In this document: positions 32,664-59,601 of the stretch, in pieces
Position numbering within the stretch: position 1 is the stretch's first letter
Layout: each line of letters opens with the position of its first letter
From: Rhodothermus sp.
GTDB lineage: Bacteria; Bacteroidota; Rhodothermia; Rhodothermales; Rhodothermaceae
Assembly (NCBI GenBank): GCA_030950375.1
Contig: JAUZRN010000019.1
Span: 1-64,000, forward strand
Direction of reading: 5' to 3'
DNA: 64,000 nt
Notes under the pieces: generated by a model
Database searches by the model: none
Told to the model about the DNA's origin: nothing
What the model saw: only the letters and a program-made list of their open reading frames with translations
Position numbers and translations under genes: made by a program

Positions 32664-33998
32664 TCACAATTGCCACCCGCGGCGATAGGTGGGACGGATG
32701 TATTCCACCGGCACTTCCCTGTTGGTCACGCGCATGGCGGACGCATCCCATTCGATCGTTCCTCCTACCCGAACAGCCAGGTTTCCCAGCAACACCATCT
32801 CGGTCAGCGGTCCTGCATAGTCCGGAAAGTTCGATCCTGCCTGTCCTCCGCTTTTGCAGGCCGCGATCCATTCCTGATAGACGCCTGGTGAACGGGGGTA
32901 ACGCGGTGCGGGTGCCGACGCCATCCACTCCTGGTGTCGTTTCTCGGGTACCAGCCGTGGATTTTCACCATAGGTTCCAGCAATGAGTACGCCTTCGTCG
33001 CCAATGTATAGCTGTCCGTTGTCCATCGGCGGCCAGGGTCGATCTTTTTCCCACTGCGGCGGACGAGGCGGGGCCAGCCTGCCATCGCGCCAGATTAGCC
33101 GCAGGGCTGGCCGATTCCCCCGGGCCGCAAACTCGTAGGTCACGCGCGACACCAGCGGTGCCGTCTCCGGAAAAACCGGTGTTGTCTCGGCTGTTATTCG
33201 CACCGGGTCGCGCAGATCGAACGTCCAGAAGGCCGCGTCCATAATATGACAGCCCATGTCGCCCAACGCGCCGGTTCCGAAGTCCCACCAACCCCGCCAC
33301 TTGAATGGCACATAAGCTGGATGGTAGGGCCGCTCCGGTGCTGGCCCCAGCCACAGGTCCCAGGCCAGCGTCGGGGGCACATGGTAAGCTTCCAGGGGTC
33401 GCTCGATGGCCTGTGGCCAGATGGGCCGGTTCGTCCAGCAATGAATTTCCCGCACCGTCCCGATTGCCCCTGCCTCAATCCATTCGCGAATCTGACGCGT
33501 CCCTTCTCCTGCATGCCCCTGATTGCCCATCTGTGTTACGACGTCCTTTTCACGAGCCACCTCGGCCAGTCATCGGGCCTCGTAGATCGTACGCGTGAGC
33601 GGCTTCTCGCAGTAGACATGCTTGCCCATCTGCATGGCCATCATCGCCGCTACAGCGTGCGTGTGGTCGGGCGTCGAAATCACCACCGCGTCGATGCGAC
33701 TGGCCTCTCGTTCCAGCATCACCCGAAAGTCCCTGTAGCGCGGCACGTTCGGAAAGGCCCGATATGTGTCGGCCGCACGCTCATCGTCCACGTCACAAAA
33801 AGCCACCAGGTTTTCGCCGGCCACGCCGCGTACGTTCCAGGCGCCCCGGCCTCCCACGCCGATGCAGGCAATGTTCAGCTTATCGCTGGGTGGCACGAAC
33901 CCGCGTCCGAGCACATGCCGAGGCACGATCGTAAAGGCCGCTCCGGCCATAGCCATTGTTCCCAGAAACCTGCGGCGAGACATTGCTTGTGCTGCCAT
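32664..33998 (-). pseudogene. Tat-exported Gfo/Idh/MocA oxidoreductase interrupted by one in-frame TGA
   Basis: 444 codons in one frame, broken only by TGA at 33570-33572 (codon 143). The front part has a twin-arginine signal (MSRRRFLGTMAMAGAAF), the Rossmann GVGGRGAWNV and the CEKPLTRTIYEAR box, and ends at the stop. The rest resumes at once with LAEVAREK and reads [34 protein letters not shown] and on to a normal C-terminus. GAGGGG precedes the ATG at 33998. Homologues of this exported type work with DUF1080 and isomerase proteins. A single base change (for example TGG or CGA to TGA) explains it, so this is either a very recent inactivation or a sequencing error. Restart at a GTG at 33560 would lack the NAD domain. 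Confidence 0.85.
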
Positions 33999-34169
33999 AG
34001 CCCCTCTCTGGATGATTTTCAGGTCTGGCACATGGTTGCTTCCTCCTCAGCGGATAGCCCTGACTGAAAGACCGTCCGGCCAGGCGTCAGACTGTGAAGG
34101 CTCGGATCAAGCCCGTCGTAGTCAGCACTCCTCCAGCAAATTGCATCGCTGCGTATCCACCGTGTCTTT

Positions 34170-34889
34170 TCAGTTCAGCAGGCGGATGCGGATATTGCGA
34201 TACCAGACCGGATCGCCGTGATTCTGGAGGGCGATATGGCCCTGGCGCGCTTTGCCGAAGTTCGGATAGACCCTGAACTTGCTGGCTGCTACACGGGCGT
34301 TCCAGTCGTCGCTACCGAGTTCGTATGCCACCACCTTCTGACCGTTGAGCCAGTGTTCCACGTGCGTGCTGTCGACCACAATGCGCGCAGCGTTCCATTC
34401 CCCGGCTGGACGCACCGCCGTTGGATCCGTCGGGTAGAGTGCGTAGCAGGCACCGGCACTTGTTTTTGGATCATTTCCGTTGGGATGGCCGGCATTGTCC
34501 AGCACCTGATACTCCGGCCCGCTCATCCATGGCGCATCGTACTCCTCAGTTACCCGGTACATAATCCCACTGTTACCGCCCGGCGCCACCTTCCATTCCA
34601 ACTCCAGCACAAAGTCGGCAAACTGCGCCTGCGTGATCAGATCGCCGCTCCCCTCACCCGTACAGTGCAGCGTTCCGTCTTCAGCGATTCGCCAGCAGGG
34701 TGGAATTGTCTCACTCCGATAGCCTCGCCAGGCGTCCAGGTTGCTGCCGTCAAACAGTACAATCCAGCCGTCGGAAGTGTCGGCTACAGCTGCTGGCGGC
34801 GACGCGGGCGTCTCTGAACGCGGCATTCCGCACCCGATCGCCAGCAGCATGAGCCCCGGCAGTGCGATCACGCAAAGCTTTCGTTTCAT
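34170..34889 (-). CDS. DUF1080 lipoprotein (3-keto-disaccharide hydrolase family)
   Basis: 239 residues. A lipoprotein signal ends at LLAIGC, followed by a Pro/Ala linker. A single jelly-roll domain then begins [17 protein letters not shown]. Family landmarks follow: [71 protein letters not shown] and the C-terminal [20 protein letters not shown]. Proteins of this family cleave glycosides that have been oxidised at C3, by an elimination-type route rather than classical hydrolysis. It overlaps the upstream isomerase gene by 4 bases (ATGA) and is followed by the exported oxidoreductase pseudogene, so the oxidising partner in this operon may be lost. Confidence 0.9.
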
Positions 34890-35818
34890 CGCGGTCCTCC
34901 CTGATCTTCCTGGTGCTCTTCAGCCAGTAACGTACGCACCCGCTCCAGCAGCGCCTTTGTGGCCCGAATGCCTGCCGGCTCCTCCAGCCGATTCCCCTCA
35001 TACTCGATCCCGATGTAGCCTTGATAGCCGGCATCGCGCACGATACGCAAAAGCCGCACGTAGTCCAGCCGCGTCTCGTTGCCCTCCGCGTCAAAATCAT
35101 ACGACTTAGCGCTCACGCCTTTCGCGAAGGGCATCAGCTCAGCCAGTCCCTGGTACGGATCATACTGGGACTTTTCGTCAACGCGCCAGTTGCCAAAGTC
35201 CGGCAACGTGCCACACCGCGGGTGATCCACCAGGCGAATGACCCCGGCCAGCCAGGCACCGTTACTCGACAGCCCTCCATGGTTTTCCACCAGCACGTTC
35301 AGTTCGTGCTCGGCGGAAAACTCCACAAGCCGGCGCAACCCGTCAGCTGCCAGCTTCTGCTGCTCCTCATAGGTTCCCTCACTGGCCGCGTTGACCCGGA
35401 TCGAGTGACACCCCAGAAAACGTGCAGCTTCTACCCATTTGTAATGATTTTCGACCGCCTGTCGGCGCCGGCCTGGATCCGGATCGCCCAGGCGTCCTTC
35501 ACGATCGCACATAATCAGCAGGCTGCGCACGCCTTCCCCTTCAGCTCGTCGTTTCAGCTCCCCAAGATAGGCCCGATCGCGTGCCCGGTCGAAAAAGAAC
35601 TGATTCACGTACTCAACCGCCTCAATTCCGAATTCGCGCCGGGCCACCACCGGAAAGTCCAGTGCATCCAGCTTTCCGCCGAAGATTGTCCGGTGCAGCG
35701 ACCACTGGGCCAGTGAAATCCGAAACCACGGCCTGCGATCTGCCATGCCGGCTGGTGTCCAGCCCAGACCAACCGCCAGTAAAGCAGAAGCGCGCTCGAG
35801 AAAGTCCCGTCGATTCAT
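34886..35818 (-). CDS. Tat-exported sugar isomerase/epimerase-type TIM barrel protein
   Basis: 310 residues starting [19 protein letters not shown], a twin-arginine signal. The barrel starts [17 protein letters not shown]. Probable metal and active-site residues lie in [44 protein letters not shown] and YIGIEYEGN. It is a paralogue of the protein encoded at 27517, with a different N-terminal half. It would act on a keto-sugar in the periplasm. The gene is 8 bases downstream of the MFS transporter gene and overlaps the DUF1080 gene by 4 bases, so the operon order is transporter, isomerase, cleaving enzyme, oxidoreductase. Confidence 0.88.
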
Positions 35819-35826
35819 GGTATGCC

Positions 35827-37092
35827 TTACTTTTCAACCGGAGCAGACGCGTCGGCTGTCGTCACCGGCATACGCTCTACGCGGTCGTTGAACAGCAGAC
35901 CGAACAGCACCATCACCACCGCGGCAAACACTGCCGGAATAAACCAGAACTGCTGCCAGGCTCCCAGAGTCAGAGACCCGGCCTCGCCCAGGAAGCTGTT
36001 GTACAGATTCCCCGCCAACTGTGCCCCAATGAGCATCCCCAGCCCGTAGGTCACCAGCACGAGCATGCCCTGCGCCTGTCCCCGAATTGCAGGCGTGGAC
36101 TTCTTATCCACGTAGATCTGACCTGTCACAAAGAAGAAATCGTAGCAGATGCCGTGCAACAGAATGCCCAGGATGATCATCCAGAAGATAGACGCCGGAG
36201 CAGCCAGCGCAAACAACACGTAGCGCAACACCCAGGCCCCCATTCCTACCAGCAACATCCACTTAACACCCAACCGTGCAAAGAATACCGGCATCAGCAG
36301 CATGAAAACCACCTCCGACATCTGTCCGAGCGTCTGCGTGCCCGCGATGTTCTGAAAGCCCGTCGCCTCCAGGAAAAGCTGCGTAAAGTTGTAGTAAGCG
36401 GCCAGTGGAATGCTGATCAAAAACGAACTGATCAGGAACACGTAAAACGGCTTACTACCCAGCTGTTCAAGCGCATCCAACCCCACGATACTCCGGATTG
36501 AAACGCGCTGGCCGGCAGCCGGCGGAGGCGTATGTGGCAGTGTGAAGCTGAAAAAACCCAGGAGCATGCTGGCCACGGCCGCCGTATAGATCGGCAGTGG
36601 TGTCTGCTCGGGCAGGCGCCCCTCCGCAACGAAAAACTTCAACACAAAGCTTACAAATAGCCCGGCCACAATCCAACCAATAGTGCCGAACACCCGGATC
36701 AGCGGAAACTGCTTTTCCTGGCTCTGAATGTGATGGAACGCCAGCGAGTTGGCCAGTCCCAGCGTGGGCATGTAGCACAGATTATAGAGCAGCAACAGTA
36801 GAATAAATACTACAGGCGCGCTGCTAAACTGAGGCACCAGTAGCAAGACCACACCGCCCAGCAGGTGCAACACACCCAGCACTTTTTCCGTGGCAAAGTA
36901 GCGGTCAGCCACCAGTCCCAGAAAGAACGGCGCAGCAATTGCCGCAATCGGGTTGACCGTATAGGGCCAGTGCGTAAGCGTGCCCATACCCTCGGCGGTC
37001 ATATAGACAGCCACTGACGTATACCAGGCACCCCAGATAAAGAACTCCAGAAACATCATGGCGCTGAGGCGCATGCCCAGGAAACGCGTCAT
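35827..37092 (-). CDS. MFS transporter of the nucleoside:H+ symporter (NupG/XapB) type
   Basis: 421 residues with twelve hydrophobic segments. It begins [18 protein letters not shown], as do NupG-like symporters of Bacteroidota. The motif [16 protein letters not shown] after the second helix and [13 protein letters not shown] in the middle are typical. Members cluster with Gfo/Idh/MocA and DUF1080 genes and are likely importers of sugars or keto-sugars rather than nucleosides in that setting. That is inference from context. It is the first gene of the operon. A promoter and a LacI-type palindrome lie directly upstream. Confidence 0.87.
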
Positions 37093-37251: not shown

Positions 37252-38448
37252 TCATTGAAGACCAGACAGATAACGACGGGGTTCTGGACGATCAGGTGCC
37301 AGCCGCAGGGCTTGTTGCCAGGCACGGCGAGCGGCTTCCCGGCGCCCCTGTCGCGCATACAGAATCCCCAGGTTGATCCAGCCATCCACAAACGTCGTGT
37401 CGCGCTGCACAGCAGCCTCTAACAGTCCAATGGCCTGATCTTCGCGCCCCATAAGCAGATACAGCACCGCGATATTATTCTGGAATTCCAGATTGTCCGG
37501 CTCCAGAAAATGGGCTACCTGATAGGCATACAGGGCTTCCTGGTACTGCCCCAGTTGCCGCAGAAGTGATCCCAGTGTGGCGTAGGCATACGGATCGCGT
37601 GGCGTATTGGCCACCAGTAGCTCGGCCTGCTCCACTTTTGCCTGCAGTGCACGCAACACTTCGGCCCGCTCCAGTAGGCGACGGGCGGCTTCGAGGGCGC
37701 CCAGTTGCTGTAGTGCCCGACCCAGGCTGTAGTGAGCGGCCTGGTGCCAGGGTGCCTCCTGCACCACCGCTTCGAGCAGGGAACGTGCCTGCTCTGGCTG
37801 TCCGGTCCGCAGCAGCAGATTGCCCAATCGATAGCGCGCCGCCAGACTTTGCGGGACCAGCTCCCAGGCGCGATGGGCAGCCTGCAGGGCTTCGTCATAG
37901 CGGCCTTCGTTTTCATACAGTTTGGCCAGATCAAGCCAGGCTTCGGCATAGGTGCTGTCCTGCCGGAGCGCCATTTCATAGGCGATCCGTGCGCTGTCAG
38001 GCTGTCCCAGTTCCATGTAAGCCCGTCCGATGCCTCGCCAAGAGAGGGCATTGGGGTGCAACGCCAGCTCTTTCCGGAACAGGGCAATCGCTTTCCGAAA
38101 CTGTCCACGCCGGGCCGCATTGTTGGCCAGGTTGTGCCACACGCCGGTATAGTCGGGCACGTAGCGAGCGATCTGTCGGTACAGGCTGTCGGCTGTGTCA
38201 AGCAGACGCATGTGCGTGTAGAGGCGCCCCTTGAAAAACAGAATATCCGGATGGTCGGGCTGAAGCCCAGTGGCACTGTCTGCCAGTTGAACGGCGCGGA
38301 CAAACTGTTGCTGCTGGAATGCCTGTTCGGCCTGGATAAGGAGCTGCTGCGTCTCAGGCAGGAGCGGTGGATACGGCTCCTGTCGATCTCGACACGCTCC
38401 CAGGCACGTTATCAGCAACAAAAGCCTCGGCCATGCCCGACCAATCAT
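37252..38448 (-). CDS. TPR lipoprotein
   Basis: 398 residues. A lipobox (TCLGAC) is followed by about ten tetratricopeptide repeats, for example GVWHNLANNAARRGQFRKAI, AEAWLDLAKLYENEGRYDEA and GWINLGILYARQGRREAA. It is a scaffold protein anchored to a membrane, probably on the periplasmic side. It is clearly paralogous to the lipoprotein encoded at 42938, sharing the order of repeats and the FLEPDN/FWEPNN and AARRAW.QALR elements. Its ATG overlaps the stop of the ASPIC/UnbV gene by 4 bases. It is the last gene of a four-gene coupled set with the pentahaem cytochrome. Confidence 0.85.
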   Translation of the reverse strand: MIGRAWPRLLLLITCLGACRDRQEPYPPLLPETQQLLIQAEQAFQQQQFVRAVQLADSATGLQPDHPDILFFKGRLYTHMRLLDTADSLYRQIARYVPDYTGVWHNLANNAARRGQFRKAIALFRKELALHPNALSWRGIGRAYMELGQPDSARIAYEMALRQDSTYAEAWLDLAKLYENEGRYDEALQAAHRAWELVPQSLAARYRLGNLLLRTGQPEQARSLLEAVVQEAPWHQAAHYSLGRALQQLGALEAARRLLERAEVLRALQAKVEQAELLVANTPRDPYAYATLGSLLRQLGQYQEALYAYQVAHFLEPDNLEFQNNIAVLYLLMGREDQAIGLLEAAVQRDTTFVDGWINLGILYARQGRREAARRAWQQALRLAPDRPEPRRYLSGLQ

Positions 38449-40196
38449 AACGTCCCCGGGCTTCCGGAACGTCCCTGGGCCAGCATCCCTATCGGTCGGC
38501 CGGTCCCCTCTACCAGCTGCACCTCCTGATCGGCTTCAAACGGACCGAAGCGCTCGCGTAATCCGGTCGCCCATTCGACCTCGACGGCTTCCACCCATCG
38601 GACTGCCCCCAACCCGAACGTCAGTGTCTTTTCAGAGACGGCCAGATAGCTGCCTCCGGTACGCACCCACTGCTCCAATCGCCGACCACCGGCCCACACA
38701 ATCACCCGGCTACTGATGCCCTGCGGGTGGCTTTTTGTACCGACCAGTTGCACACGCAGGTAATGCCCGACCTTTCTGGTATCATTGCGCCACAGATGTA
38801 CCGGTCCGTTGTTTTCGATCACAAGGATGTCCACCAGCCCATCCCGATTAAAATCGCCGTAGGCAGCTCCACGCGCAACGATCGGTTGCGCCAGCACTCC
38901 CCCGGCCCGGGGGGCGACATCCTCGAAGAAACCGTAGCCGTCATTCAGAAAGAGGTGAGGCGGTTGCGCATAGGTGATGCCATCCTGCACGCGTTCAATC
39001 TCGTCCTGCACATGCCCGTTGGCCGCAAACAGATCCAGATCACCATCCAGATCGACATCAAACAGAAACAGCCCGAAGGTGAGCGTCTGCAGGCTCTGGC
39101 GTCCGATCTTTGAAATGGCAGCACGATCGATAAACAGGTCGTTGCCAATGTAGCGGTAGACGCCAATCATTTCTTTGGAGAAGTTCCCTACGAACAGGCT
39201 GATCTGGCCGGTTGTGTCGACCACACCCGCATCGAGCCCCATACCAGCACGCGCTTTTCCATTTTCATCATAAGCTACTCCACTCGTCAATCCAATGTCG
39301 GTGAAAGTCCCATCGCAATTGTTTCGGTAGAGTTGATCTGGCTGTGTATCGTTGGCCACGTAGAGATCCGGGCATCCATCGCGGTTGTAGTCGGTTTCGG
39401 CAACCCCCAGCGTTTTGCCGGGTGCTGGTACGAATCCGGCTTTTTTGCTTTCGTCGGTAAACGTCCCATCGCCGTTGTTACGGAAAAAGTAAGGTGGCAC
39501 ACCCTTATAGGCTTCGGGCGTGCAGTAGCCCTTGGTTTTCTCATCAAGCGAACACCAGAGGTCGGTCTCTGGTGTCCAGTAGACGTAGTTGCCCACAAAC
39601 AGGTCCAGATCGCCGTCGCGGTCCGCGTCGAAGAAGATGGCCGAGCTGCTCCAGACTGAATCGCCGGCCACCCCTGCTTCCTCGGTTACATCTGTAAACG
39701 TGCCGTCACCGTTGTTGCGCAGCAAGATGTTCTTCCACAGGGTGGTCAGGTACAGGTCTTCGTCGCCGTCGTTATCGTAGTCAGCCGCCGTAATGCCGAT
39801 AGCATAGGCATGCAACTTACTGAGCCCTGCCTCGTCCGTTACGTCCGTGAACGTGCCATCACCGTTGTTGCGAAAAAGCCACAGCGGCCGTACCCAGTCC
39901 TTGTCGCTGTAGCCAGGCCAGACTCCACCGCCCACCAGCACGATATCCAGCCAGCCATCGCCGTTGTAATCGAAAAAGCCACATCCTGGTCCCATGGATT
40001 CCGGGAACCACTTCTTCCCGAACGCTCCTGTCTCATGTCGGAAGGCTCCCAGTCCGGCTGCCTCGGTCACATCGGTGAAGGCAATCTGCACGGTCTCTAT
40101 GGAGGCCGCTTCCTCTACGGGCCTTTGCACCTGCTCAGCCCGCTCGCAGCCGACCATCAGTAGCGCCAGCAGGCCATATGTCATACATTTTCTCAT
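38445..40196 (-). CDS. CRTAC1-type lipoprotein (FG-GAP/VCBS repeats with ASPIC/UnbV domain)
   Basis: 583 residues. A lipobox (LLMVGC) is followed by seven-bladed-propeller-like FG-GAP repeats. Each carries a calcium loop of the form D-x-N/D-x-D-G-x-x-D (DYNGDGWLD, DYDNDGDED, DADRDGDLD, DVDLDGDLD, DFNRDGLVD) and an RNNGDGTFTDVT blade edge. An ASPIC/UnbV domain closes the protein: HYLRVQLVGTKSHPQGISSRV, then GGSYLAVSEKTLTFGLG and VEVEWATGLRERF. Two CxxxxxC-like cysteine pairs in the middle may form disulphides. Such proteins are extracellular or periplasmic and often co-occur with TPR proteins. Their reaction is unknown. The gene overlaps both its neighbours by 4 bases. Confidence 0.88.
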   Translation of the reverse strand: MRKCMTYGLLALLMVGCERAEQVQRPVEEAASIETVQIAFTDVTEAAGLGAFRHETGAFGKKWFPESMGPGCGFFDYNGDGWLDIVLVGGGVWPGYSDKDWVRPLWLFRNNGDGTFTDVTDEAGLSKLHAYAIGITAADYDNDGDEDLYLTTLWKNILLRNNGDGTFTDVTEEAGVAGDSVWSSSAIFFDADRDGDLDLFVGNYVYWTPETDLWCSLDEKTKGYCTPEAYKGVPPYFFRNNGDGTFTDESKKAGFVPAPGKTLGVAETDYNRDGCPDLYVANDTQPDQLYRNNCDGTFTDIGLTSGVAYDENGKARAGMGLDAGVVDTTGQISLFVGNFSKEMIGVYRYIGNDLFIDRAAISKIGRQSLQTLTFGLFLFDVDLDGDLDLFAANGHVQDEIERVQDGITYAQPPHLFLNDGYGFFEDVAPRAGGVLAQPIVARGAAYGDFNRDGLVDILVIENNGPVHLWRNDTRKVGHYLRVQLVGTKSHPQGISSRVIVWAGGRRLEQWVRTGGSYLAVSEKTLTFGLGAVRWVEAVEVEWATGLRERFGPFEADQEVQLVEGTGRPIGMLAQGRSGSPGTL

Positions 40197-42922
40197 GGTT
40201 TACGGCGTTCGTTTTGCCAGGCCATCGCCGTCATGCGCGGTAACAGTCCCCGGTCGTCCACCCGGTGCAACTCGTGTTCATGGATAGGCTGTGCTTCGCG
40301 GTTAGCCATAGGATGACGGTGCTTGTAAGGCGTACTCCAGGCCGAAGCCTCTTCGTCTACTTTGTGATATTCGTAGCGGGCTTTTGCGGCACGGAATTCC
40401 TCGGTACGTCCCAGCGCGCCCAGCGTTAGCATTCGGTTGTAGAGCCCCCCCAGGTCCTCCGGATCGATCGCCAGAATACGATCGAACCAGCGAAGCGCCT
40501 CTTCGTAGCGGCCGGACAGGTAATGAATACGTCCGATTTCCTGCAGCAGGACCCGGTCAAGTGGATAGCGAGCGGCCACCTTCATCCACTCCCGCAGAGC
40601 CAGGTCGTATTCGCCGCGGCGCTGGTAGATTTTGCCCCGGAAATAAGCGGTTTTCAGGTAGCCGGGACGCCGCCGTTCGGCCTCGGCCAGCGCCTCCATA
40701 GCACGGTCGAGCTGGCCTTCAGCGATCAGAACACGAGCCAGGTTAATGGGACCTTCGGGACTGTCGGGTGCCAGTCGACTCACCTGCTCGAAGGCCTCCA
40801 GGGCCCTACGCGTGTTGCCCTCCAGAAAGAGGCCGATACCATAGTCATTCCAGCGCTCCCAGAGCGGCACGTTGCTTTCGGGTACCTGTCCGGCTATGCG
40901 ACGTGCTGAAGCAATGACGGTTACCGGTAGTGCTGGCGCGCTGCGGTCTTCGGCCAGGATCCACCGCCGATAGTCCACTTCGGGTGTAGCCAGCGAGTCG
41001 GGCTCGCCCGGCGCCACCTTTCCCCGAAATGTCCAGTTATGGAAGTACCACTTGAACTTGCGGTGCTTGAAAGCCACCGCGAGTTCGGTTATTGGACGGC
41101 CGGGAGGCACAGTAAACCGGTAGTGAACCGTACGGGCGGTGCCGGGATTGATCACGTTCACATAGACCGGCGTGCGAAAATCGTGCGGATTCCGCTTGTT
41201 GGCTTCCTGTCCGGCCCGGTCTACGAAAACAGCTCCGAAGAAGTGCGCGGTAGAATCGACGCGGCCTTCCGAGTCGAGCAACCCGGAGGCTACCACAGCC
41301 TGTCCGTTCCGGTCGCGTCCGATCACCTCCAGCCAGAGCTCATTCGAGTCGTTCGTGCCACCAGGCAGGGCATGGCCCACCTTTCGGTTGCGCACGACCA
41401 CGGTCAGTTCTACCTGATCCCCGGCCCGAAGCACCGGCATCGGCTCATCAGGGCCATAGGTGTGACCGTTCACCCGCACCCGAAACAGGTCGACCGTGGC
41501 AATGGAGTCCTGCAAAAACGCCTGCGTCGCCCGGAGTTGTTCGTCGTGTCCTTTGAGAAACGGCAGTGCCGTATTCGCGGCCAGAAAGCGGTGACTCCGT
41601 ACGAAGCCGCCGTCGTTTCCCTGATCATTGGAAGGTACCAGGGGCATATGGCAGTCGATGCACGTGCGTGGTTGCTCGGGCAGATAGAATGACCGAACCG
41701 TATTGCCCGAGACACCGCTCATCTGCCAGGCGTCGTATTCATTCTGTCCACGCAACCAGCGGTAGTAATTAACCGCGGGGGGCAACCCGACCTTGTGGCA
41801 ACTGCTGCAGAATTGTTCAGTGCGATGCACCGGACGGAGCATCGCTTCCCGATGGGGTTCTGGCTTGGCGAGGATCAGCTGGCGGTGTAGCCACTGTCCG
41901 ATTGGATTCGTGCTCCGGGCAAACGGATATTCATCAGGTCGGGCAATCACATAGCGTCCGTTACCCCGCAGGTCGCGTAGTCCCGTAATTGCGTGGCAGG
42001 AAAGACAGGTAATCCCCTCATGCGCCGTCCAGTGCGTGGTGTCAAGCGGCATGCGATGCCCAAAGCGTCCGGAAAAGAGCATAACCGGATCGTGACAGGA
42101 GGCGCACCAGCGAGCGGCTTCAACCGGCCGACGCTGGAGCATGTATTCGATGGAGCGGCGGTAATACGGATTATTGAACGAAGAGAAGTGATGGGCAGAA
42201 GCTGCCCACTGCGCGTAAATATCAGGATGGCAACCAGCCTGTCCACATGTCCTGGAGCCCGACAGCGTGGCCTCTTCAAAGAACTTTTCATGCGCCAGCA
42301 ATGCTTCAGCAGCCGCCAGCGGGTTTTCGGAACCCGTATCGAGATAGACCGGGCCGGACTGTTTCAGCCAAGGCACCAGAAAGAAGGCCATAGAAACCAC
42401 CACCCCCGCACTGAAGGTCAGCGTCAACGGATGGTACAGCAACCGCCCCCAATGCCGGACAGCCTCCCCTCTGGGCAGCAAGAATCGAAAGCGAGCACCC
42501 CGTTTGAGCGATACGTGTACGAGAAAGCCCAGCAGCGAGGTGAACATGGTCACCACATGGAGTGTCAGCAGCCAGCGCCGATTCAGCGTGGCTTCGCCCC
42601 AGAATAGCAGAATGCCACTCAGCAGCAGCAACAACATGGAAAGCGCCGTAAACGCACCAGCAGCCGTAGCACGAAGATTCCAGCGCAGCGGCATCGTACG
42701 AAGGTGCGCCAGCAGAAACAGTAACAATGGAATGATCAGAAGCAGCCCGAGCCCGACATGCAGCAACACGTTGCTCATATAGATGAGCGCCGTTGAACGA
42801 TCAAATAGCACGAGCACCAGGCTGTTGAGCAGCAGTACGAGAAAGCCTCCCAGCAGGATGCTCACCAGCCGACGTTGTCCGTGAGGCAGATGAAATAGCT
42901 GCTTATTACGCGAACGCAGCAT
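40193..42922 (-). CDS. Membrane-anchored pentahaem cytochrome c fused to a TPR domain
   Basis: 909 residues in three parts. Residues 1-190 hold five membrane helices with several His (55, 73, 122, 136), in the style of a cytochrome b561-like anchor. Residues about 200-430 carry five haem-binding motifs: CGQAGCH at 226-232 (a CX4CH spacing), CASCH (273), CLSCH (306), CSSCH (372) and CIDCH (421), resembling cytochrome c554-type domains. A beta-rich domain (about 460-650) follows, with VGHALPGGTNDSNELWLEV. The C-terminus (about 690-880) is a run of TPRs. The first part could pass electrons between the quinone pool and extracytoplasmic haems. Partners are the flanking TPR and ASPIC lipoproteins. 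No known enzyme domain is present, so the substrate is open. Confidence 0.87.
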   Translation of the reverse strand: MLRSRNKQLFHLPHGQRRLVSILLGGFLVLLLNSLVLVLFDRSTALIYMSNVLLHVGLGLLLIIPLLLFLLAHLRTMPLRWNLRATAAGAFTALSMLLLLLSGILLFWGEATLNRRWLLTLHVVTMFTSLLGFLVHVSLKRGARFRFLLPRGEAVRHWGRLLYHPLTLTFSAGVVVSMAFFLVPWLKQSGPVYLDTGSENPLAAAEALLAHEKFFEEATLSGSRTCGQAGCHPDIYAQWAASAHHFSSFNNPYYRRSIEYMLQRRPVEAARWCASCHDPVMLFSGRFGHRMPLDTTHWTAHEGITCLSCHAITGLRDLRGNGRYVIARPDEYPFARSTNPIGQWLHRQLILAKPEPHREAMLRPVHRTEQFCSSCHKVGLPPAVNYYRWLRGQNEYDAWQMSGVSGNTVRSFYLPEQPRTCIDCHMPLVPSNDQGNDGGFVRSHRFLAANTALPFLKGHDEQLRATQAFLQDSIATVDLFRVRVNGHTYGPDEPMPVLRAGDQVELTVVVRNRKVGHALPGGTNDSNELWLEVIGRDRNGQAVVASGLLDSEGRVDSTAHFFGAVFVDRAGQEANKRNPHDFRTPVYVNVINPGTARTVHYRFTVPPGRPITELAVAFKHRKFKWYFHNWTFRGKVAPGEPDSLATPEVDYRRWILAEDRSAPALPVTVIASARRIAGQVPESNVPLWERWNDYGIGLFLEGNTRRALEAFEQVSRLAPDSPEGPINLARVLIAEGQLDRAMEALAEAERRRPGYLKTAYFRGKIYQRRGEYDLALREWMKVAARYPLDRVLLQEIGRIHYLSGRYEEALRWFDRILAIDPEDLGGLYNRMLTLGALGRTEEFRAAKARYEYHKVDEEASAWSTPYKHRHPMANREAQPIHEHELHRVDDRGLLPRMTAMAWQNERRKP

Positions 42923-42937
42923 ATGTTCACCGTATGG

Positions 42938-44188
42938 TTAGAAGTCACGCTGCCGTTCCAGTTCAGCCAGATACTGTCGCAAGGTAGCATCCTGTGGGCG
43001 ATAGCGCAAGGCCTGTAACCATGCCCGACGTGCCGCTTCGTACTGATGCAGCCTGGCCAGTACTACGCCCAGGTTGAACCATACGTCGGCCAGTGTCGAA
43101 TCATGTTGCAGCAGCTGGTAGTAGCGCCGCACGGCATCCAGGGTATCGCCCAGCAGTAACGACAGATTGGCCCGATCGTTTTGCAGCGCCGGGTTGTTTG
43201 GCTCCCAGAAAATGGCCACATCCAGCGCTTTTCGCGCCTCCTGCAATTGCCCTACCTGAAGCAGCAGCCTGGCCAGTTCCTGCCAGGGACGCGCACGCTG
43301 GCTCTGATAGGCATTTAGCTTTGCCTGACCGATCTTTCCGGAGAGTTGCTGAATCTGCCGTGCACGCTCCAGAAAAAGCTGACCGGCTTCACGTTCTCCC
43401 ATTAACATCAGGACCCGCCCCAGGTTGTAATTGGCCCCCCGATGCATGGGCTGCCGCTCCAACACCAGACGTAAAAAGTGTGCGGCATCTTCCAGATAAC
43501 CATTTTGCAGCAGCAAGCGTCCAAACGTATAGATATTCTCCGGATGGCCTGGATTCAGCCGCATAGCCTGCTCTGCAAAGGCCAGAGCCCGCGACATATT
43601 GCCCTCCTGCTCCTCGAGCTCGGCCAGCCAGCGATAGGTTTCGCTTTCGGACGAGTCGACCTGTAACGCTTTCTGGTAAAACTGACGCGCTGCCTTCAAG
43701 CTATCCAGCAAGAAGCAGGCACGGCCAGCCTGCCGATAGACAGCCGCCAGCATGGTCCGGTCTGCCTGCGGCCTTGAAGGTGACGCCCGAATTGCCTCCA
43801 GTTCCTGCAGATAGTAATCCAGCGCTTTTCGATACGCCCCCTGCAGAAAAGCGGCATGTCCCAGTTGAAAATAGATGCCGCGTAGCAGAGGGTCTCTCGC
43901 CCGTGCTTGTTGAAAAGCAGTTATTGCCTGTTCAAAGGCATTCGCATCGAGCAGGATACGTCCTTTCAGCAAATAGGCTTCGGCAGCGTCCACCTCAGCG
44001 AGCACGCTATCGACCAGTTGCATTGCCTGACCGTAATCTCCTGCGCCATATGCCTGCCACGCTGCCTGTAACTGGGCTCGCTGCGCCGCTGGAAGTAGTG
44101 GTCGCGGAGGCGATTCTTTTCCCCCACACCCGATTCCCCAGACGGTCAGTACAACTACCAGCCCGCCATGTATCGCAGTCCGCAGCAC
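42938..44188 (-). CDS. TPR lipoprotein, paralogue of the one at 37252
   Basis: 416 residues with a lipobox (VWGIGC) and about ten TPR units (AYLLKGRILLDANAFEQAI, IYFQLGHAAFLQGAYRKAL, NIYTFGRLLLQNGYLEDAA, WFNLGVVLARLHQYEAA). The start is GTG, with AGAG about 8 bases upstream. No ATG fits the signal peptide. It lies 15 bases upstream of the cytochrome gene and is the first gene of the four-gene set TPR, cytochrome, ASPIC, TPR. The two TPR lipoproteins align over their whole length, which points to an old duplication bracketing the cytochrome and ASPIC genes. Confidence 0.85.
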   Translation of the reverse strand: MLRTAIHGGLVVVLTVWGIGCGGKESPPRPLLPAAQRAQLQAAWQAYGAGDYGQAMQLVDSVLAEVDAAEAYLLKGRILLDANAFEQAITAFQQARARDPLLRGIYFQLGHAAFLQGAYRKALDYYLQELEAIRASPSRPQADRTMLAAVYRQAGRACFLLDSLKAARQFYQKALQVDSSESETYRWLAELEEQEGNMSRALAFAEQAMRLNPGHPENIYTFGRLLLQNGYLEDAAHFLRLVLERQPMHRGANYNLGRVLMLMGEREAGQLFLERARQIQQLSGKIGQAKLNAYQSQRARPWQELARLLLQVGQLQEARKALDVAIFWEPNNPALQNDRANLSLLLGDTLDAVRRYYQLLQHDSTLADVWFNLGVVLARLHQYEAARRAWLQALRYRPQDATLRQYLAELERQRDF

Positions 44189-44297: not shown

Positions 44298-45332
44298 TCA
44301 GAAGGCAAGTTGGAGCCCAAGGCGATGTACGTTATCGAAGATACCGAATGAGGTATAGGCGTAGTCGATCCCGATGCGGAAGGTTCGTGCGCCCAACCGC
44401 AGCCCAGCTCCCAGGTTGAGCCCCTGCTCATCGGTTGGATTCACGTAGCCTGCCCGCAGGAAAAACAGATCCATGAAGGAATACTCTGCTCCTACCTTGA
44501 TCTGCTCCGGATAGTCGCGGGGCCGGACAGCCTCCACGTTGAGCCAGAGCGCATGCATGCCATTGCCGGGCGCGACCAGGTCCATAAGGTTATAAGTAGC
44601 CCCGATCTGAAAGCTCAACGGTAGCTCAAAGCTTTCTTCCACGTAAGTGAGCTCACGGGAAAAGTTACGCACGCTCATGGCGAAGGTGAGGCTCTGAAGG
44701 GCCGTCCGGTAGAGCACCCCAAAGTCCACAGCTATGGTTGACTTGGTGTAGCGCTGGGTACGGCCATCCAGTCCAATCTGGGCAGCTCCCAGATCCTGAC
44801 GGGCCAAGCGAGCATGGCCTCCCACGGCAAAGCGGTCGGTGATGGCCCGTGCGTAGCCGATTCCGATAGCCAGCGCGCTGGGGCTATAAGTCCCCTGCTC
44901 CTCATAGCCCTGCTCGTTGGTAGCAAAGACGGTTCGGATCACCTCGGGATAGCTGACGGCCACTACACTCAGACCAATCACGCCGTACTGTCCATCGGCC
45001 GGCCGGTAGGCCAGGCTGGCGTAGCTGTAATCGGTGTTGTTGATCCACTGGGTCTGTCCGACTGCAAAGTGGAAGGTCTGCTCGAAATAGGCCATCCCGG
45101 CCGGATTGTAAAAGAGCGAGAGGGAGGCGTTGTCGTCGCGGGCCGTAAGCGCATCGCCCAACGCTGCTGCTCGCGGATCGAGCGAAACGCTGAGGAACTT
45201 AAAGCCGGTCTGCGCCAGTTTTCTGGTTTCGATGTCCGTTATCGGTCCGGTATCCTGGGCGTGGAGCTGACCGACCTGCAACAAGCAAGCGGTCAGCAGG
45301 ATACCCATGCCTGTATATAGCAACCGTTTCAT
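44298..45332 (-). CDS. PorV/PorQ-family outer-membrane beta-barrel protein
   Basis: 344 residues with a signal peptide (cleavage near LHAQD). The mature start GFKFLSVSLDPRAAALGDA followed by LFYNPAGMAYF is the signature of the PorV/PorQ family. The rest alternates short beta strands, ends with aromatic residues and closes on Phe (LGLQLAF), as outer-membrane barrels do. PorV shuttles cargo of the type IX secretion system and PorQ is related. No other por genes are in the window. It follows the gene for a secreted protein with a sorting-like C-terminus after 40 bases, so this may be a dedicated helper for that cargo or a lineage-specific barrel. Confidence 0.85.
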   Translation of the reverse strand: MKRLLYTGMGILLTACLLQVGQLHAQDTGPITDIETRKLAQTGFKFLSVSLDPRAAALGDALTARDDNASLSLFYNPAGMAYFEQTFHFAVGQTQWINNTDYSYASLAYRPADGQYGVIGLSVVAVSYPEVIRTVFATNEQGYEEQGTYSPSALAIGIGYARAITDRFAVGGHARLARQDLGAAQIGLDGRTQRYTKSTIAVDFGVLYRTALQSLTFAMSVRNFSRELTYVEESFELPLSFQIGATYNLMDLVAPGNGMHALWLNVEAVRPRDYPEQIKVGAEYSFMDLFFLRAGYVNPTDEQGLNLGAGLRLGARTFRIGIDYAYTSFGIFDNVHRLGLQLAF

Positions 45333-45372
45333 TGTCTTCCTCGGGTTGGCTGTTCGTTCATAAAAGCGCTGA

Positions 45373-47598
45373 TTATCGAATAATCACGATGGTCCGGGTT
45401 GTCTGCGCACCGGTTTCTTTGTCGGTGATCACGGCGAAGTAGATGCCGCTGGCCACCACCTGACGCGATGAGGTGGTCAGGTCCCAGAATTCATCGCCGC
45501 TACCATCGGTATGCTCAATCACCTTCACCAGCTCGCCCAGCTCGGTATAGATACGGATGGTAGCCTGGGCAGGCAGTCCATAGAAGGCGATTTTGTCCTG
45601 GATGTCGGGGAAGCGCACCCCCAGATCCGCTTCCAGCACGTAGGGATTGGGGACCACGCGTACCTCATCCAGCGAAGCGCCCGGTGGCCGTCGGAGCACA
45701 GCAGGCAGATACGTCTGGGTCCAGTATCGATTACTCTTCAGGCCATTGCTGCCCACAGCCTGGATATAGTAGAAATAATTGACTCCCCGGCTCACCTCAG
45801 TGTCGGTATACGAACGAGCATTCCCGGGGAGCTCGGCAATTTTCTGATAGACGGTTGAGCTATCCGGTAAGGGGATCCCATAGTAGTAATTCTGAGCCCG
45901 CCAGATTTCCCACTTCTCCGGATCCGGCTCGCCGGCATAGGATTCCCACTCCAGCGTAATCTTATCAGTCCCTGAGGTTACCACAAACCGTCGGGGCGGC
46001 CTGGGAGGTTGTGGCACCTGCATGCCGTTGTCCCAGACCTCCAGGATCTGATCAAAAAGCTGGAAGAGCGAGTCGCGGGCCGTCATGACCCACTCGTTTT
46101 TCGTCATGCCAAGGCATCCGGGATCGCCCGCGTTGCAGTAGGTATTGGTCGTAGGATTCCAGTAGAAGACGGCCTGATCGGCAGCATCACGACCCAGCTG
46201 GCGGACCTGTTGCTTATACCAGCGTCCCAGCGCATAGGCCAGCTTATCGTTCAGCCCCGCAATTGCTTCAGCGATCACGATGCGAACGTTCTCCCCCGGT
46301 CCCAGCGTGTAGGGGCCGAAGCTCTGGACGTATCCGTAGCCGCCTTCGCTGGGCTGTGGCGGGGCCGTCTGTCGGGCAAAGTCGCCGTCGGGTTGAATCC
46401 GCCAGGCATGCGGTGGCTTTTCCTCATTGTAGCGCGGCGGCCCACTGCCGCTTTTCTTCCCATCTACCAGCCAGTCTCGCTCAAATTGCATCTGGCTAAT
46501 GTCATTGTGATCATTGCGGCTGGTCAGGTCGGCATCGTCTGAGTCAAGGATGTCCATCATGCTGGGCTGTCCCTCATCATGCGACTCATCCGAGGCTGAC
46601 CGATCGGCATGAACGGTCAGGGTACCGAACATCGCAGCCGCTCCCAGGCGCCCGGTTGTATCTCCACCGATATGGGCAATCCAGGGCTGCAACTCAAACC
46701 ACATGGGATTGCCGATAGTGTTAAAGTTCTGTTGATCCGGCACATGTCCGATCCAGGAAAACTGGGCCGCATGCGCTTTCCAGAATTCATAGCCCTGCGC
46801 AAAGCGCTCGCTGAACTGCTCACCGGGCATGTCGTCCCAGTCCGGCACCAGCGCATCATTCATGGTATACTTGCCCCATGCGGCTCCTCCATGGCTATTG
46901 TCCCAGGCACCAGCCGGCGCATTAGCCTTGTTGCGGTAGAAGAACGTGAAGTAAACGTTCTGGAGGGTCTGATCGGGCAACTCTACTTCTTCATCCTCGT
47001 CCACGTTGCCCGTGTTGGTAAAGACATATTCAATAATGTGATAGTCCTGGTGCTGCTCGTTGCTGAACTGATAGGCCCGTCGCTGCACTTCAATGCCCAT
47101 GGCCGTATGGGCAATGTTTTCGACCATGGCATCAGCGGGAATATCCGGATTGACTTCGTCCGGCACAGCGGGCTTATCAAAGGATTTGAGTCCATCGACC
47201 AGCACTTCGGGGGGCTCGAACTTGTAAACCAGCTTGATCACGTCCTGGAAGTATTCACCAAGCCCGTTAAAACGAGGCCCGATGTGCTCAATGCGTACCG
47301 GAAACGTCTGTCCGTCTGGCGACCGCCAGTTCTGTGCACTGATCCATAGCCCACGCCAGTGCCCCCAGTATGTGCCAATCAGATGCCCAGGCCAGGTGTG
47401 AGTCCCATTATTCCCGATACCGGCCATGTTTTCCGGCTCGGCCCCACCACCCAGGTAGGGCGACTGGAGTCGTCCAATCGCCAACCATCGGGTGCTCCAC
47501 TGGGCCTGGACAGGCCCAGCGCACAGGAACAGCAGCAGGCAAAGCCCCAAGCTGCTCCGCCAACCGTTTGTCATGTTTTGCTGCATCAGCGTACTCAT
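45373..47598 (-). CDS. Large secreted protein with fibronectin-III-like and T9SS-type C-terminal domains
   Basis: 741 residues with an N-terminal signal (LGLCLLLFLCAGPVQAQ). The body has no recognised catalytic family and contains WYKQQVRQLGRDAADQA and acidic low-complexity stretches. A fibronectin-III-like domain (about 575-665, FVVTSGTDKITLEWESY) precedes the last 95 residues. Those read VRVVPNPYVLEADL, ATIRIYTELGELVKVIEHT, GIYFAVITD and TRTIVIIR, the pattern of T9SS type-A sorting/FlgD-like domains. I use the ATG at 47598, just after the stop of the TonB receptor gene, though Met codons at 47586 and 47574 are possible. It is probably surface-exposed or released, and sits between the TonB receptor and PorV-like genes. 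Confidence 0.8.
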   Translation of the reverse strand: MSTLMQQNMTNGWRSSLGLCLLLFLCAGPVQAQWSTRWLAIGRLQSPYLGGGAEPENMAGIGNNGTHTWPGHLIGTYWGHWRGLWISAQNWRSPDGQTFPVRIEHIGPRFNGLGEYFQDVIKLVYKFEPPEVLVDGLKSFDKPAVPDEVNPDIPADAMVENIAHTAMGIEVQRRAYQFSNEQHQDYHIIEYVFTNTGNVDEDEEVELPDQTLQNVYFTFFYRNKANAPAGAWDNSHGGAAWGKYTMNDALVPDWDDMPGEQFSERFAQGYEFWKAHAAQFSWIGHVPDQQNFNTIGNPMWFELQPWIAHIGGDTTGRLGAAAMFGTLTVHADRSASDESHDEGQPSMMDILDSDDADLTSRNDHNDISQMQFERDWLVDGKKSGSGPPRYNEEKPPHAWRIQPDGDFARQTAPPQPSEGGYGYVQSFGPYTLGPGENVRIVIAEAIAGLNDKLAYALGRWYKQQVRQLGRDAADQAVFYWNPTTNTYCNAGDPGCLGMTKNEWVMTARDSLFQLFDQILEVWDNGMQVPQPPRPPRRFVVTSGTDKITLEWESYAGEPDPEKWEIWRAQNYYYGIPLPDSSTVYQKIAELPGNARSYTDTEVSRGVNYFYYIQAVGSNGLKSNRYWTQTYLPAVLRRPPGASLDEVRVVPNPYVLEADLGVRFPDIQDKIAFYGLPAQATIRIYTELGELVKVIEHTDGSGDEFWDLTTSSRQVVASGIYFAVITDKETGAQTTRTIVIIR

Positions 47599-47623
47599 AT
47601 CTTCAACCGAATGGTTTGCCCGG

Positions 47624-50600
47624 TTAAAAGGAAATTCGAAGCCCGAAGAATACGCGCCGCGGATTAAAGAAGGTGAAGAAGTCGGCATTGGGCATATCAA
47701 TGTATGCTTTCTCTTCCAGCACCTTCTTCACAAAGTCTGGATCGGCTTCCACGAATTCGCTCCCGTTATAGCGGTAGTACGTCCCGTTCTGGTAGTAAAG
47801 CGGTCGTGTGGGGTCATTCGGATCGTCATTGGAGCCCACTGCTGGCGTGCAACCACTGGGTGGACACACGACAATGGGCACAAACTCGACGCCCGGCTTG
47901 CGGTAATCGCCAGGTCGATCGTTGCCCGGCACAAACAGGTAGGGCGGGTTTTCCAATCCTTCGAATGTGCTTTCAGGCAGATGTAACGACTGCAGATAGT
48001 CACGCAGGTCGTCCGGCCCGGTAAAGCCACTCCATCGGTTCATGTGCCGGATGTTGAACACGTTTGTTACGTCCATGAAGAACTGGACCTCGCCCAGATT
48101 CGTGGTGAAGGTCTTGCTCAGACGCAGATCAAAGTTGTAGTAATCCTTCCAGCGCACATTGTGCTCAATGCCTCGCACCGGACTGATACCCTCAACCAGT
48201 TGCTGTCCGGTCCACGTGAGCACCTGTCCGGCCCGCCATTCGCCCAGCAGGCTCACCCGCCAACCGGCCAGCGGACGGAAGCCGTTGTAGTTCGGCCCGT
48301 AATCCTCCGGGATGACGAAGTCCAGATTGAAACGGGCGAACGGTTCAGGAATTGGCTTACTTTGATAGTGGTCTACTGTGGTCAGCAGATACTGCTGTTG
48401 CTGTACCGGGTTTTCATAGTTGTAGGTAAAACCAAAATTCCCGCTCTTTCGGGACAGGTAGGTGTAGTTCACAAAGCCCTGAATCCAGCGGCCTCGGTTC
48501 TTGGCAATGGAGATTTCGAAACCACGCACATCGCCGTAATTCCAGGGCCGGGCTACCCAGTAATTTACCTCTCCGTCAATGCTTTCAAAGTTGATATTGC
48601 GTGCCTGCAGCGACACGTCGCGATAGTAGCCAGCAATACGCAGCAGGAACATGTCGAACAGATTCTGCTCGAAGCCCAGCTCATACGCGACAGTCTTCTG
48701 CAACGGCAGATTCGGGTTACCGATACGGCCCACGGCGCCGCTGGAGATCCGCTCTATCTCAAAGAGGGGTACCGGATCGGGCATCTGGCGGAAATGGCCA
48801 TAGTTGAAGTATAGCTTACTGTTTGCAGACACGGGAAAGGAAATCCCCAGCCGCGGGCTCAGCGTTAGCTGCTTATCGACCTGTTCTTCTGGTAAAACCT
48901 CGTCCAGTTTGTCCACGCCGAAAACCGGCGTAAAGGCCCGATCGTATGGCTCATAGACGTACCATTTACCGCTTGGATTGAAGTAGTCAAGGCGCACGCC
49001 CAGGTTGGCAATCAATCCCTTGAATTCCAGCTTGCTCTGCAGGTACGCAGCGCCCTGCTGAGGTTTGCGGCGCCAGCGATACTTCGGATTGGCATGATGA
49101 ACAAAGAAGGGATCCTCCTCTCCGTAGTTCATATTGTAGTCGCTCAGGTGCAACTCAAAGCCGCCTTTCACCTGCAGGTAGCGGTTGAGCTGGCTCGTAA
49201 TCGAAGCGCCAAACACCCACCGGGACACGTTCGACGTGTCGTAGGCAACCCCCCCGTGTCCTCCGATGCGTAGCCCGTTGGCACTCAGTCCATCCTGCAT
49301 GCCTTTGGGCTCATAGCCAAACGGCGCTTCGTTCAGACGGATAACATTGGGTGCCTGGCAGGCCGGATCGTCAATGGGTCGGATCTCCGGCTCGGGCGTC
49401 ACACAAACGATGGGATCCGGGTTCCGATAGGGCACAGGCCCTGTCGTATAGTTGGTCTGTACCCGCTGCAACTGTACCTCGTAGAACGTATTCGGGGTAA
49501 GTGCATGGGTAAACTTCGCCCCATAGAGCGTGTAGTCGATATCCATGGGGTTGATCACCCAGTCGCCGTAGAGCGCAGCCCGCGCCACATGGCCCTCAAT
49601 CCCCTCACCGCCCGCAAAGATCATATTTTCCAGGTAAGGACGGCCATCCCAGGGGTAGACAGGTGTACTCCCGTCCACCATGTCGGCTGTTGCTCCTTCC
49701 GCAATGGATACCGGGCGCACCAATCCTCTGCGCTTTGACCAGAGGCTGACCAGCTCCAACCTGGCTCCGGCCGCTACATCTGCAACCACTTTGGCTTGCG
49801 TCGTATAGTCTTTGTAGGCCCGGCGGCGCTGCGGAATGACGAAAGCACTCTGCGTGCGTCGGTGCGAAATCAGAAAGCGCAGATTGCCCAGATACGCGCC
49901 AATCCCCGGTACCGGCCCCGTGATCGTTCCGTCTATCTGATAATCCGGATCGTCGATGCGATTGTTTTTCCGAACCATCCACTCGTAAGCCTTCTGGAGC
50001 TGCTGCGGCGTTATGTCGTTGTCTGGATCGCTGTCGGTATTGGCCGGATAGGCCGCAGCCGCTGCTTCCCAGCCCTCAAAGTCGGGAAACTGATTCTCTG
50101 TCCAGTCATCCCAGGCGGCATCCGTACCGATCATGGCCACCGCCGGATCGAAATACGGCCGAATCCAGAAGGCATCGGGGTCATTAGGCGTGCCCTCGAA
50201 CGTCTTGGCCTGCGGCGGCGCATAGCGCAAGATCAGGTCAACCGTGTAGCGGTTTGTGCGCGGCTCTTTCATGACCACATTAATCAAGCCGGAACGCACG
50301 TTTCCGTATTCTGCTGTAAACCCCCCCGTCTGGGCCTGCACCTCCTCAACGGCCGTGAAGCTTACCCCCGTAAACGGTGCATTTGTGCGCGGATCGGCCA
50401 GATTCATCCCGTCAAGCAGAAAGGCTATCTGATTACCGCCATAGCCACGTACGACCAGCCCTGGCTCAAAGCCCGGTTGCAATCCGATCACCTGCACCAC
50501 ATCGGTAGCAACCGGCAGGGCCTCGATCACGGCCGCATCAATGTTGACAATACTGGCTGAGATGTCCGGCTGCACAATCGGTCGTGTGGCCTGCACCACC

Positions 50601-50941: not shown

Positions 50942-51012
50942 AGATGCTCCGGTATTGGTTCTTAAGGTGAATTATTTAATTCATCATTTCTATTTATCCA
51001 ATATTTTGCCTA

Positions 51013-51041
51013 ATTATACACGCTTCTTTCCGTTTCTTCAA
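51013..51041 (-). promoter_or_regulatory. Near-consensus sigma-70 promoter of the TonB receptor gene
   Basis: On the minus strand TTGAAG (51041-51036) and a perfect TATAAT (51018-51013) are separated by 17 bases, giving a start near 51006 and a leader of about 65 bases. This is a conventional promoter rather than the TTTG/TAnnTTTG type of classical Bacteroidota. Confidence 0.75.
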
Positions 51042-51057
51042 GGGATTTTTTAATACC

Positions 51058-51069: not shown

Positions 51070-51074
51070 GTTAA

Positions 51075-51090: not shown

Positions 51091-51136
51091 TGTAGTTTTT
51101 TTCTTTGACCATCAGGAGCAAGCGCCACCGGCCAGT

Positions 51137-54442: not shown

Positions 54443-54447
54443 CGTTT

Positions 54448-57400: not shown

Positions 57401-57816
57401 TACAGATCGAGCCAGCCATTGCCGTCTACATCGGCCACGGCCACACCAGTGGCCCAGGGCTTTGTGCCGGCCACCCCTGCCTTTTCGGTAACATCCTCGA
57501 AGCGCCAGTTGCCCCGGTTCAGATACAGCTGGTTCGCGCCCTGGTTGGCTGTCAGAAAGACGTCGAGTTGCCCATCGCCGTTAAAGTCGCCTAAGCCGAC
57601 GCCTCCGCCGTTATAGAAATTGCGGTAGATGAAGACGTTGAATTCCTGGGTCTCCCGCAGGCGATTTTCAAAACGAAGGCCCGTCTGTCCGGGCGACAGC
57701 CTTTCGAACAGCGTATCGGCCGATTCATCAGCGTTGCGACAGCCGACCAGTCCCAACAGCAGGCACAGGGCTATGCTACCGCGAAGCCAAACGGTACTCC
57801 CTAATGCTGATTGCAT
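54448..57816 (-). CDS. Giant CRTAC1-type lipoprotein, tandem paralogue of the one at 51137
   Basis: 1122 residues with a lipobox (LLGLVGC). The architecture is the same: first propeller (DFNGDGQLD, DVDGNGWLD, DYDRDGDLD, DLNRDGWPD, DLDNDGFPE, DIDLDGYKD), ASPIC/UnbV at about 515-600 (HFLQVQLIGIPPNTQGIGAQV, VMVGWPDGRYEVR), and a second propeller (DVNGDGRDD, DADGDGDLD, DYDGDGDLD, DLDNDGRLD, DFDGDGDPD). Long stretches align with the downstream paralogue, for example RNWRFEDVTE, AGVAATDWSWAAL and TNRAQAWGLGQPGFS. It lies 100 bases downstream of susD, but a strong terminator intervenes, so it needs its own promoter or read-through. The promoter is not evident. Confidence 0.87.
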   Translation of the reverse strand: MQSALGSTVWLRGSIALCLLLGLVGCRNADESADTLFERLSPGQTGLRFENRLRETQEFNVFIYRNFYNGGGVGLGDFNGDGQLDVFLTANQGANQLYLNRGNWRFEDVTEKAGVAGTKPWATGVAVADVDGNGWLDLYVCYAGPFADSLRANELYLNLGPDEAGIPRFREAAAELGLADTGFSVHAVFFDYDRDGDLDVYVLNNSMRPIISLDFRNTRHERNHEGGDRLYRNDGGHFVDVSAEAGIYGPEIAFGLGVTVADLNRDGWPDLYISNDFFERDYLYLNQGDGTFQEVLEDAMAAISLSSMGADAADLDNDGFPELFVTDMLPEDDTRLKTTTTFEGWMLYQTKVENGFYHQFTRNTLQYNNGDGTFSEIGMWAGVAATDWSWAALIFDIDLDGYKDIFVANGIFWDVIDQDYLEYLSAEETMRAVIREEGVDYLTLIRKMPSHPLPNYAFHNNGDRTFTNRAQAWGLGQPGFSSGAAYGDLDGDGDLDLIVNDVNGPVRVYRNQARERLGGHFLQVQLIGIPPNTQGIGAQVTVLVGDQRLYQEQMPNRGFQSSVDPVLTFGVGAHDTVDAVMVGWPDGRYEVRYQVAVNQRLVFRQEEATRGQPELPLLPARATPRFADVTEQVALDYRHQEDAFADFLREGLMPWMRSREGPRVAVGDVNGDGRDDFYIGGAKGYPGALFVQQADGRFVRSNEALFAADALSEDLGAVFFDADGDGDLDLYVVSGGNAYAPRAPALQDRLYLNDGQGRFRKAVDHLPRIRSSGGPVAVADYDGDGDLDLFVGGRVEPWFYGMAPESLLLQNDGQGRFVNVADALAPGLSRIGMVTDAAWTDLDNDGRLDLLVVGEWMPITIFRNTGEGQLKHWQLPDLAATSGIWHRVAVADFDGDGDPDFIATNLGLNTPLQASPASPLRLFVKDFDRNGFADHLLVRPESTATGLRHRPLNLRRELLGQLPFLSARIPSHATYARMMLEDFMQPDELESAVVLEVQELRSLYVENLGNGHFRLHPLPAEAQWAPLYGLLVDDFDGDGHLDVLAGGNFRWAQTSLGLMEAIYGLWLKGDGTGHFTVVLPRDSGFFVRGEVRDIQKLNRPGQHSLILVARNDDTPRFFGVRQ

Positions 57817-59535: not shown

Positions 59536-59601
59536 GGCTATTCGATTAGGCACGTTTGATAGACATTCAACTGATCGCATTACTCTCGTTACTGGTCCGT
59601 G

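Follow-up and report, generated by a model that had tools for sequence, protein, structure and literature searches.

In a 64,000-nucleotide stretch of Rhodothermus DNA (the window), we identified a membrane-anchored pentahaem cytochrome c encoded next to a CRTAC1-type lipoprotein, a pairing that recurs in many unrelated phyla and points to a widespread, unstudied electron-handling system. We are inclined to think that the cytochrome is quinone-linked and of b/c type, and that it serves, with its CRTAC1 partner, a periplasmic redox step in substrate breakdown.

A preliminary description of the locus had proposed four coupled genes. All four were recovered as minus-strand ORFs at the same positions, with junction gaps of 15, -4 and -4 bases.

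42938..44188, minus strand: TPR protein A, 416 aa, GTG start, probable lipoprotein (Pfam TPR; lipobox GIGC, weak)
40193..42922, minus strand: membrane-anchored pentahaem cytochrome c with a TPR domain, 909 aa (motifs, Pfam, hydropathy, AlphaFold)
38445..40196, minus strand: CRTAC1-type lipoprotein, 583 aa, FG-GAP propeller and ASPIC/UnbV domain (Pfam, phmmer, tree; lipobox MVGC, good)
37252..38448, minus strand: TPR protein B, 398 aa, lipoprotein (Pfam TPR; lipobox LGAC, good)

The lipoprotein assignments made previously stand for the CRTAC1-type protein and TPR protein B, and are less secure for TPR protein A, with its weak lipobox. The four genes are part of a longer array on the same strand, extending upstream from PorV to SusC (44298-62658) and downstream from an MFS transporter to Gfo/Idh (32664-37092), a continuation that the preliminary description omitted.

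59602..62658, minus strand: SusC/RagA TonB-linked receptor (TIGR04056, 845 bits)
57919..59580, minus strand: SusD family lipoprotein
54448..57816, minus strand: large CRTAC1/ASPIC lipoprotein, 1122 aa
51137..54442, minus strand: large CRTAC1/ASPIC lipoprotein, 1101 aa
47624..50941, minus strand: TonB-dependent receptor with CarboxypepD_reg domain (profile matches)
45373..47700, minus strand: secreted protein with a T9SS-type C-terminal tail, TTG start uncertain (TIGR04183, 21.4 bits, just below the cut-off of 23)
44298..45332, minus strand: PorV/PorQ-family outer membrane protein (NF033709, 202.5 bits, cut-off 90)
32664..37092, minus strand: sugar genes, comprising an MFS transporter, a TIM-barrel protein, a 3-keto-disaccharide hydrolase (DUF1080) and Gfo/Idh (two ORFs)

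The SusC/SusD pair lies 14-18 kb upstream of the four genes, and the DUF1080 product, which matches PF06439 at 196.9 bits, is adjoined by Gfo/Idh. Scanning the locus for promoters and terminators did not define the boundaries of the operon. The Gfo/Idh gene (32664-34031, minus strand) is interrupted at codon 154 by an in-frame TGA, whereas its relative in a Rhodothermus MAG (L056) is a single 444-aa ORF; the split gene would be either a pseudogene or a sequence error.

For the cytochrome, hydropathy, motifs, Pfam and a structural model agree with the membrane anchor, five haem motifs and TPR domain that had been described, and resolve the chain into four regions.

42365..42883, minus strand: five-helix membrane domain, residues 14-186, with H55, H73, H122 and H136 (hydropathy, AF2 helices, histidine conservation)
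41642..42256, minus strand: pentahaem core, residues 223-427, with CX4CH at 226 and CXXCH at 273, 306, 372 and 421 (motifs; profile match to 5ze8)
40883..41500, minus strand: strand-rich Ig-like domain, residues 475-680, with invariant GH517 and G522 (AF2, invariant columns)
40364..40864, minus strand: cytochrome TPR domain, residues 687-853 (Pfam, AF2, Foldseek)

Hydropathy placed five hydrophobic segments within residues 17-187, and an AlphaFold model built with 85 sequences (pLDDT 89.7, pTM 0.86) was confident over almost the entire chain, predicting the haem core between the five membrane helices and a strand-rich Ig-like domain, with the TPR domain last; with just 17 sequences, the haem core was poorly modelled (pLDDT 55). 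The top 50 Foldseek matches to this model in the PDB were all TPR proteins, because the TPR domain dominates the search. In Pfam, the cytochrome matches PF13435 (Cytochrome_C554) at 29.9 bits, above the gathering cut-off of 20.8, and neither a family for its membrane domain nor a NapC/NirT/CymA-type domain was matched; a paralogous cytochrome of the same genome matches DUF4405 weakly (E 0.01).

All ten haem cysteines are invariant among 93 aligned relatives, including those of the first motif, which is CX4CH and not CX2CH (kept in 93/93). Four further histidines, H244, H357, H444 and H517, are likewise kept in 93/93, with H560 found in 88/93 and H346 in 68/93. Since just four further histidines are shared by all relatives, against five haems, a second histidine ligand may be missing from one c haem. 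Within the membrane domain, helix 2 holds H55 and H73, and helix 4 holds H122 and H136. H55 and H122 occur in 83 of 85 aligned rows, the other two rows having no aligned membrane region, and the H73 and H136 pair occurs in 33 of these 83; all four are conserved among near orthologues. H73 and H136 co-vary across rows (p 6e-8), with kinship-corrected comparisons too few to carry weight. Positive loops read from the sequence (the N-terminus, the helix 2-3 loop and the helix 4-5 loop) were placed inside, which would put the H55-H122 pair towards the periplasm and the H73-H136 pair towards the cytoplasm. This pattern would suit a b haem that is always present and a second that is optional.

Sequence profiles relate the haem core distantly to the pentahaem c552/ExtKL group, with a match to cytochrome c552 (5ze8) at E 2e-10. 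The window cytochrome shares with the PHC group (T. tepidum c552 5ze8, Geobacter ExtKL and MccSep) the pentahaem core and an Ig-like domain behind it, this region aligning weakly to 5ze8 296-353 and MccSep 313-347. It is set apart from this group by its five-helix membrane domain, its TPR domain and a first haem motif of the CX4CH form, and both it (19.4 bits) and its paralogue (38.9 bits) score far below the 250-bit cut-off of the ExtKL model NF040886. Compared by layout, it resembles CbcL, MtrH and MtoC, each combining in a single chain membrane histidines fit for b haems with several c haems, and quinone exchange is a likely further likeness. In CbcL, the c haems are N-terminal and the six helices C-terminal (PMC6295460), whereas the window cytochrome is reversed, with the membrane domain first, and has five helices. 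It also joins a quinone-type membrane anchor to a pentahaem group that has until now been considered in the context of extracellular conduction.

The 583-aa neighbour contains FG-GAP_3 and UnbV_ASPIC in Pfam (the latter at 42.8 bits, cut-off 23.4), six FG-GAP calcium-type loops are readable in its sequence, and phmmer matches it to the cartilage acidic protein 1 structure 9etn (E 5e-10), confirming the calcium-loop propeller proposed previously. Environmental bacteria commonly encode CRTAC1/ASPIC proteins, and we know of no function assigned to the bacterial family. A recognisable membrane redox protein as a stable genetic partner makes that function testable.

We investigated the distribution of this partnership by scanning bacterial and archaeal genomes with the cytochrome, which returned at least 580 relatives, of which the best 80 were taken on. 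These 80 come from records named as Rhodothermota, Acidobacteriota, Planctomycetota, Poribacteria, Neomarinimicrobiota, KSB1, Zixibacteria, Calditrichia, Myxococcota, Bacteroidota, Wenzhouxiangella and others, many of them MAGs whose taxon names may be wrong; the nearest named record among the relatives listed is the Rhodothermus MAG L056 (90%). By the profile used, a TPR tail is present on the cytochrome in 65 of the 76 loci read. Leaving Poribacteria aside, an ASPIC gene lies on the same strand within 400 bp of the cytochrome in 43 of 60 loci, which span several phyla (33 of these genes are downstream), compared with 11 ASPIC genes among 360 ORFs more than three genes away. The -4 overlap occurs at 11/33 cytochrome-ASPIC junctions versus 45/522 other gene pairs (p 1e-4). 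On a tree, the ASPIC proteins adjoining cytochromes cluster across phyla, with 9 changes versus 27.6 when shuffled, and the 583-aa protein falls inside this cluster, the window's two large ASPIC proteins being placed outside it. The 583-aa protein shares the FG-GAP loops and ASPIC domain of the wider CRTAC1/ASPIC-UnbV family, and its sub-lineage is the one that accompanies the cytochrome gene in different phyla. The 17 non-Poribacteria loci with no adjacent ASPIC gene include one family (f7) and contig ends, and none of the 16 Poribacteria loci read (L065-L081, L089) has an ASPIC gene beside the cytochrome-TPR gene. The same genome holds a second pair, a 673-aa cytochrome with no TPR domain and a 593-aa ASPIC protein, standing alone.

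L038, G000:C40:1016-4824: paralogous cytochrome-ASPIC pair

Co-inheritance of the two genes is distinct from physical contact, and direct contact between their products is something we infer. In 14 of the 80 loci, TPR and FG-GAP/ASPIC domains are fused into single chains, most of which adjoin the cytochrome; these fusions argue that TPR and CRTAC1 parts act together. Hydrazine-synthase homologue clusters also contain a CRTAC1 family gene (PMC12758564) and, in a likeness of neighbourhood, set it beside multihaem proteins; they differ from the window locus in their cytochrome subunits. A literature search, with most subscription journals outside its scope, found no description of CRTAC1 or UnbV with a multihaem cytochrome and TPR proteins, in line with the earlier statement that no described pathway has such a set.

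The two TPR genes have a narrower distribution. In four other genomes of the genus Rhodothermus, TPR protein A is again encoded upstream of the cytochrome (60-78%), and the order of the four genes is kept in 4/4 of the other genus genomes searched, indicating that the arrangement is not due to chance. The array order in the genus is SusC, SusD, two large ASPICs, TonB, T9SS-tail protein, PorV, TPR, cytochrome, ASPIC and TPR. In G003 and G151, and partly in G008, the last TPR gene is followed by a second TonB-tail-PorV-ASPIC-TPR-TPR set with no cytochrome, and then by the MFS, TIM-barrel, DUF1080 and Gfo/Idh genes; this second set is absent from the window's genome.

L141:5919-16828 and L144:3893-14736: second, cytochrome-free cassette in G003 and G151

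Outside the genus, we found the same succession of four genes in one further family (G215), with extra ASPIC and TPR genes, as three ASPIC-TPR units with the cytochrome among them. The expectation that the genes stay together beyond close relatives thus holds for the cytochrome and CRTAC1 gene, and for the four-gene set only within the genus and G215. In L056, the upstream TPR gene is a fragment and the second is absent; in family f7, the cassette occurs with no cytochrome (L146), which is located elsewhere; and in L038 and most other phyla, cytochrome and ASPIC genes occur with no separate TPR genes. As the cassette also occurs free of the cytochrome, and the f7 cytochrome sits elsewhere, the TPR genes are cassette parts and not obligate cytochrome partners. 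The two TPR genes here are a looser, lineage-specific addition to the cytochrome-CRTAC1 pair.

We propose that the core would be a unit of two proteins, a b/c cytochrome of the inner membrane and the CRTAC1 protein paired with it. With its N-terminus inside and five helices, the cytochrome would hold a b haem at H55-H122 near the periplasmic face and, in the window protein, probably a second at H73-H136 near the cytoplasmic face. Electrons would move between the menaquinone pool, the b haems and the c552/ExtKL-related pentahaem domain in the periplasm, where one haem may be left with an open coordination site; as to direction, we slightly favour oxidation of quinol. Docking to a partner in the periplasm or outer membrane would fall to the Ig-like and TPR domains together with the CRTAC1 lipoprotein. 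The Rhodothermus unit sits in a TonB/T9SS/SusCD array beside periplasmic sugar enzymes and would most likely serve a periplasmic redox step of substrate breakdown, with the TPR lipoproteins as extra scaffold.

The host organisms mostly live by breaking down organic matter, and several neighbourhoods contain enzymes. In family f7, a Tat-type PF12831 flavoprotein lies 3 bases upstream of the cytochrome; in Snuella, the order is SusC-SusD-ASPIC-cytochrome-GH97; and the Rhodothermus array has Gfo/Idh and DUF1080 genes as neighbours. A census of 96 neighbouring genes found no oxidoreductase or enzyme family recurring beside the cytochrome. Despite this, the neighbouring oxidoreductases and degradative genes in several lineages favour periplasmic substrate chemistry. 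DUF1080 proteins have been proposed to act on periplasmic 3-ketoglycosides in other bacteria (PMC9007349), which makes a 3-ketoglycoside route a candidate here, no more. The neighbouring oxidoreductases also include a PQQ dehydrogenase with a cytochrome c domain, encoded within a cytochrome-ASPIC array (L062:11742-13919; 56% identity) of a MAG named Neomarinimicrobiota, possibly misbinned.

The kinship with the PHC group may accommodate either conduction or haem catalysis. Were the pentahaem domain itself the enzyme, its open-site haem would reduce or oxidise a small periplasmic molecule with electrons of the quinone pool; the count of four universal histidines for five haems and the pentacoordinate haem described for the PHC group (PMC11976967) are consistent with this, yet the fifth ligand could be H560, H346 or a non-histidine residue, and we consider this reading unlikely. 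We regard as more improbable still that a CbcL-like quinol oxidase passes electrons outward across the outer membrane, as the preliminary description had suggested. The ExtKL/c552 group, kin to the haem core, has been proposed for extracellular electron transfer (PMC11976967), the b-plus-c layout resembles CbcL and the array includes outer-membrane proteins; however, no cytochrome was found among these outer-membrane genes, gene neighbourhoods in other phyla showed no recurring porin-cytochrome family, and the genome has no match to an MtrB/PioB porin and only two PF13435 cytochromes, which argues against the known outward conduits. The genome-wide CXXCH motif count (218 versus 125 in a control) is uninformative. 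The suggestion of outward transfer therefore gained no specific support.

A fixed complex of exactly the four window products, also proposed previously, seems to us similarly improbable. The tight junctions, the order conserved in four other genus genomes and the TPR-CRTAC1 fusions elsewhere would suit it, but the TPR genes also occur in cytochrome-free cassettes (L146; G003, G151), L056 has no complete TPR genes, and cytochrome-ASPIC pairs with no TPR genes are the rule. Beyond the periplasmic redox step that we favour, we raise tentatively, as a possibility on the doubtful side, that the cytochrome-TPR protein and CRTAC1, with a TPR lipoprotein or as a TPR-CRTAC1 fusion, form an undescribed class of quinone-linked periplasmic oxidoreductases in many phyla, in which the CRTAC1 propeller would be an integral subunit; if true, the bacterial CRTAC1 family would thereby gain a first known function.

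Finally, we noted two further features of the cytochrome family. A conserved tail ending in IHEH (H881 and H883; window 40253-40315, minus strand) lies behind the TPR domain across the family, and in G242 the cytochrome ORF (L050:9144-11813) is broken by one TAA between the membrane and haem domains.
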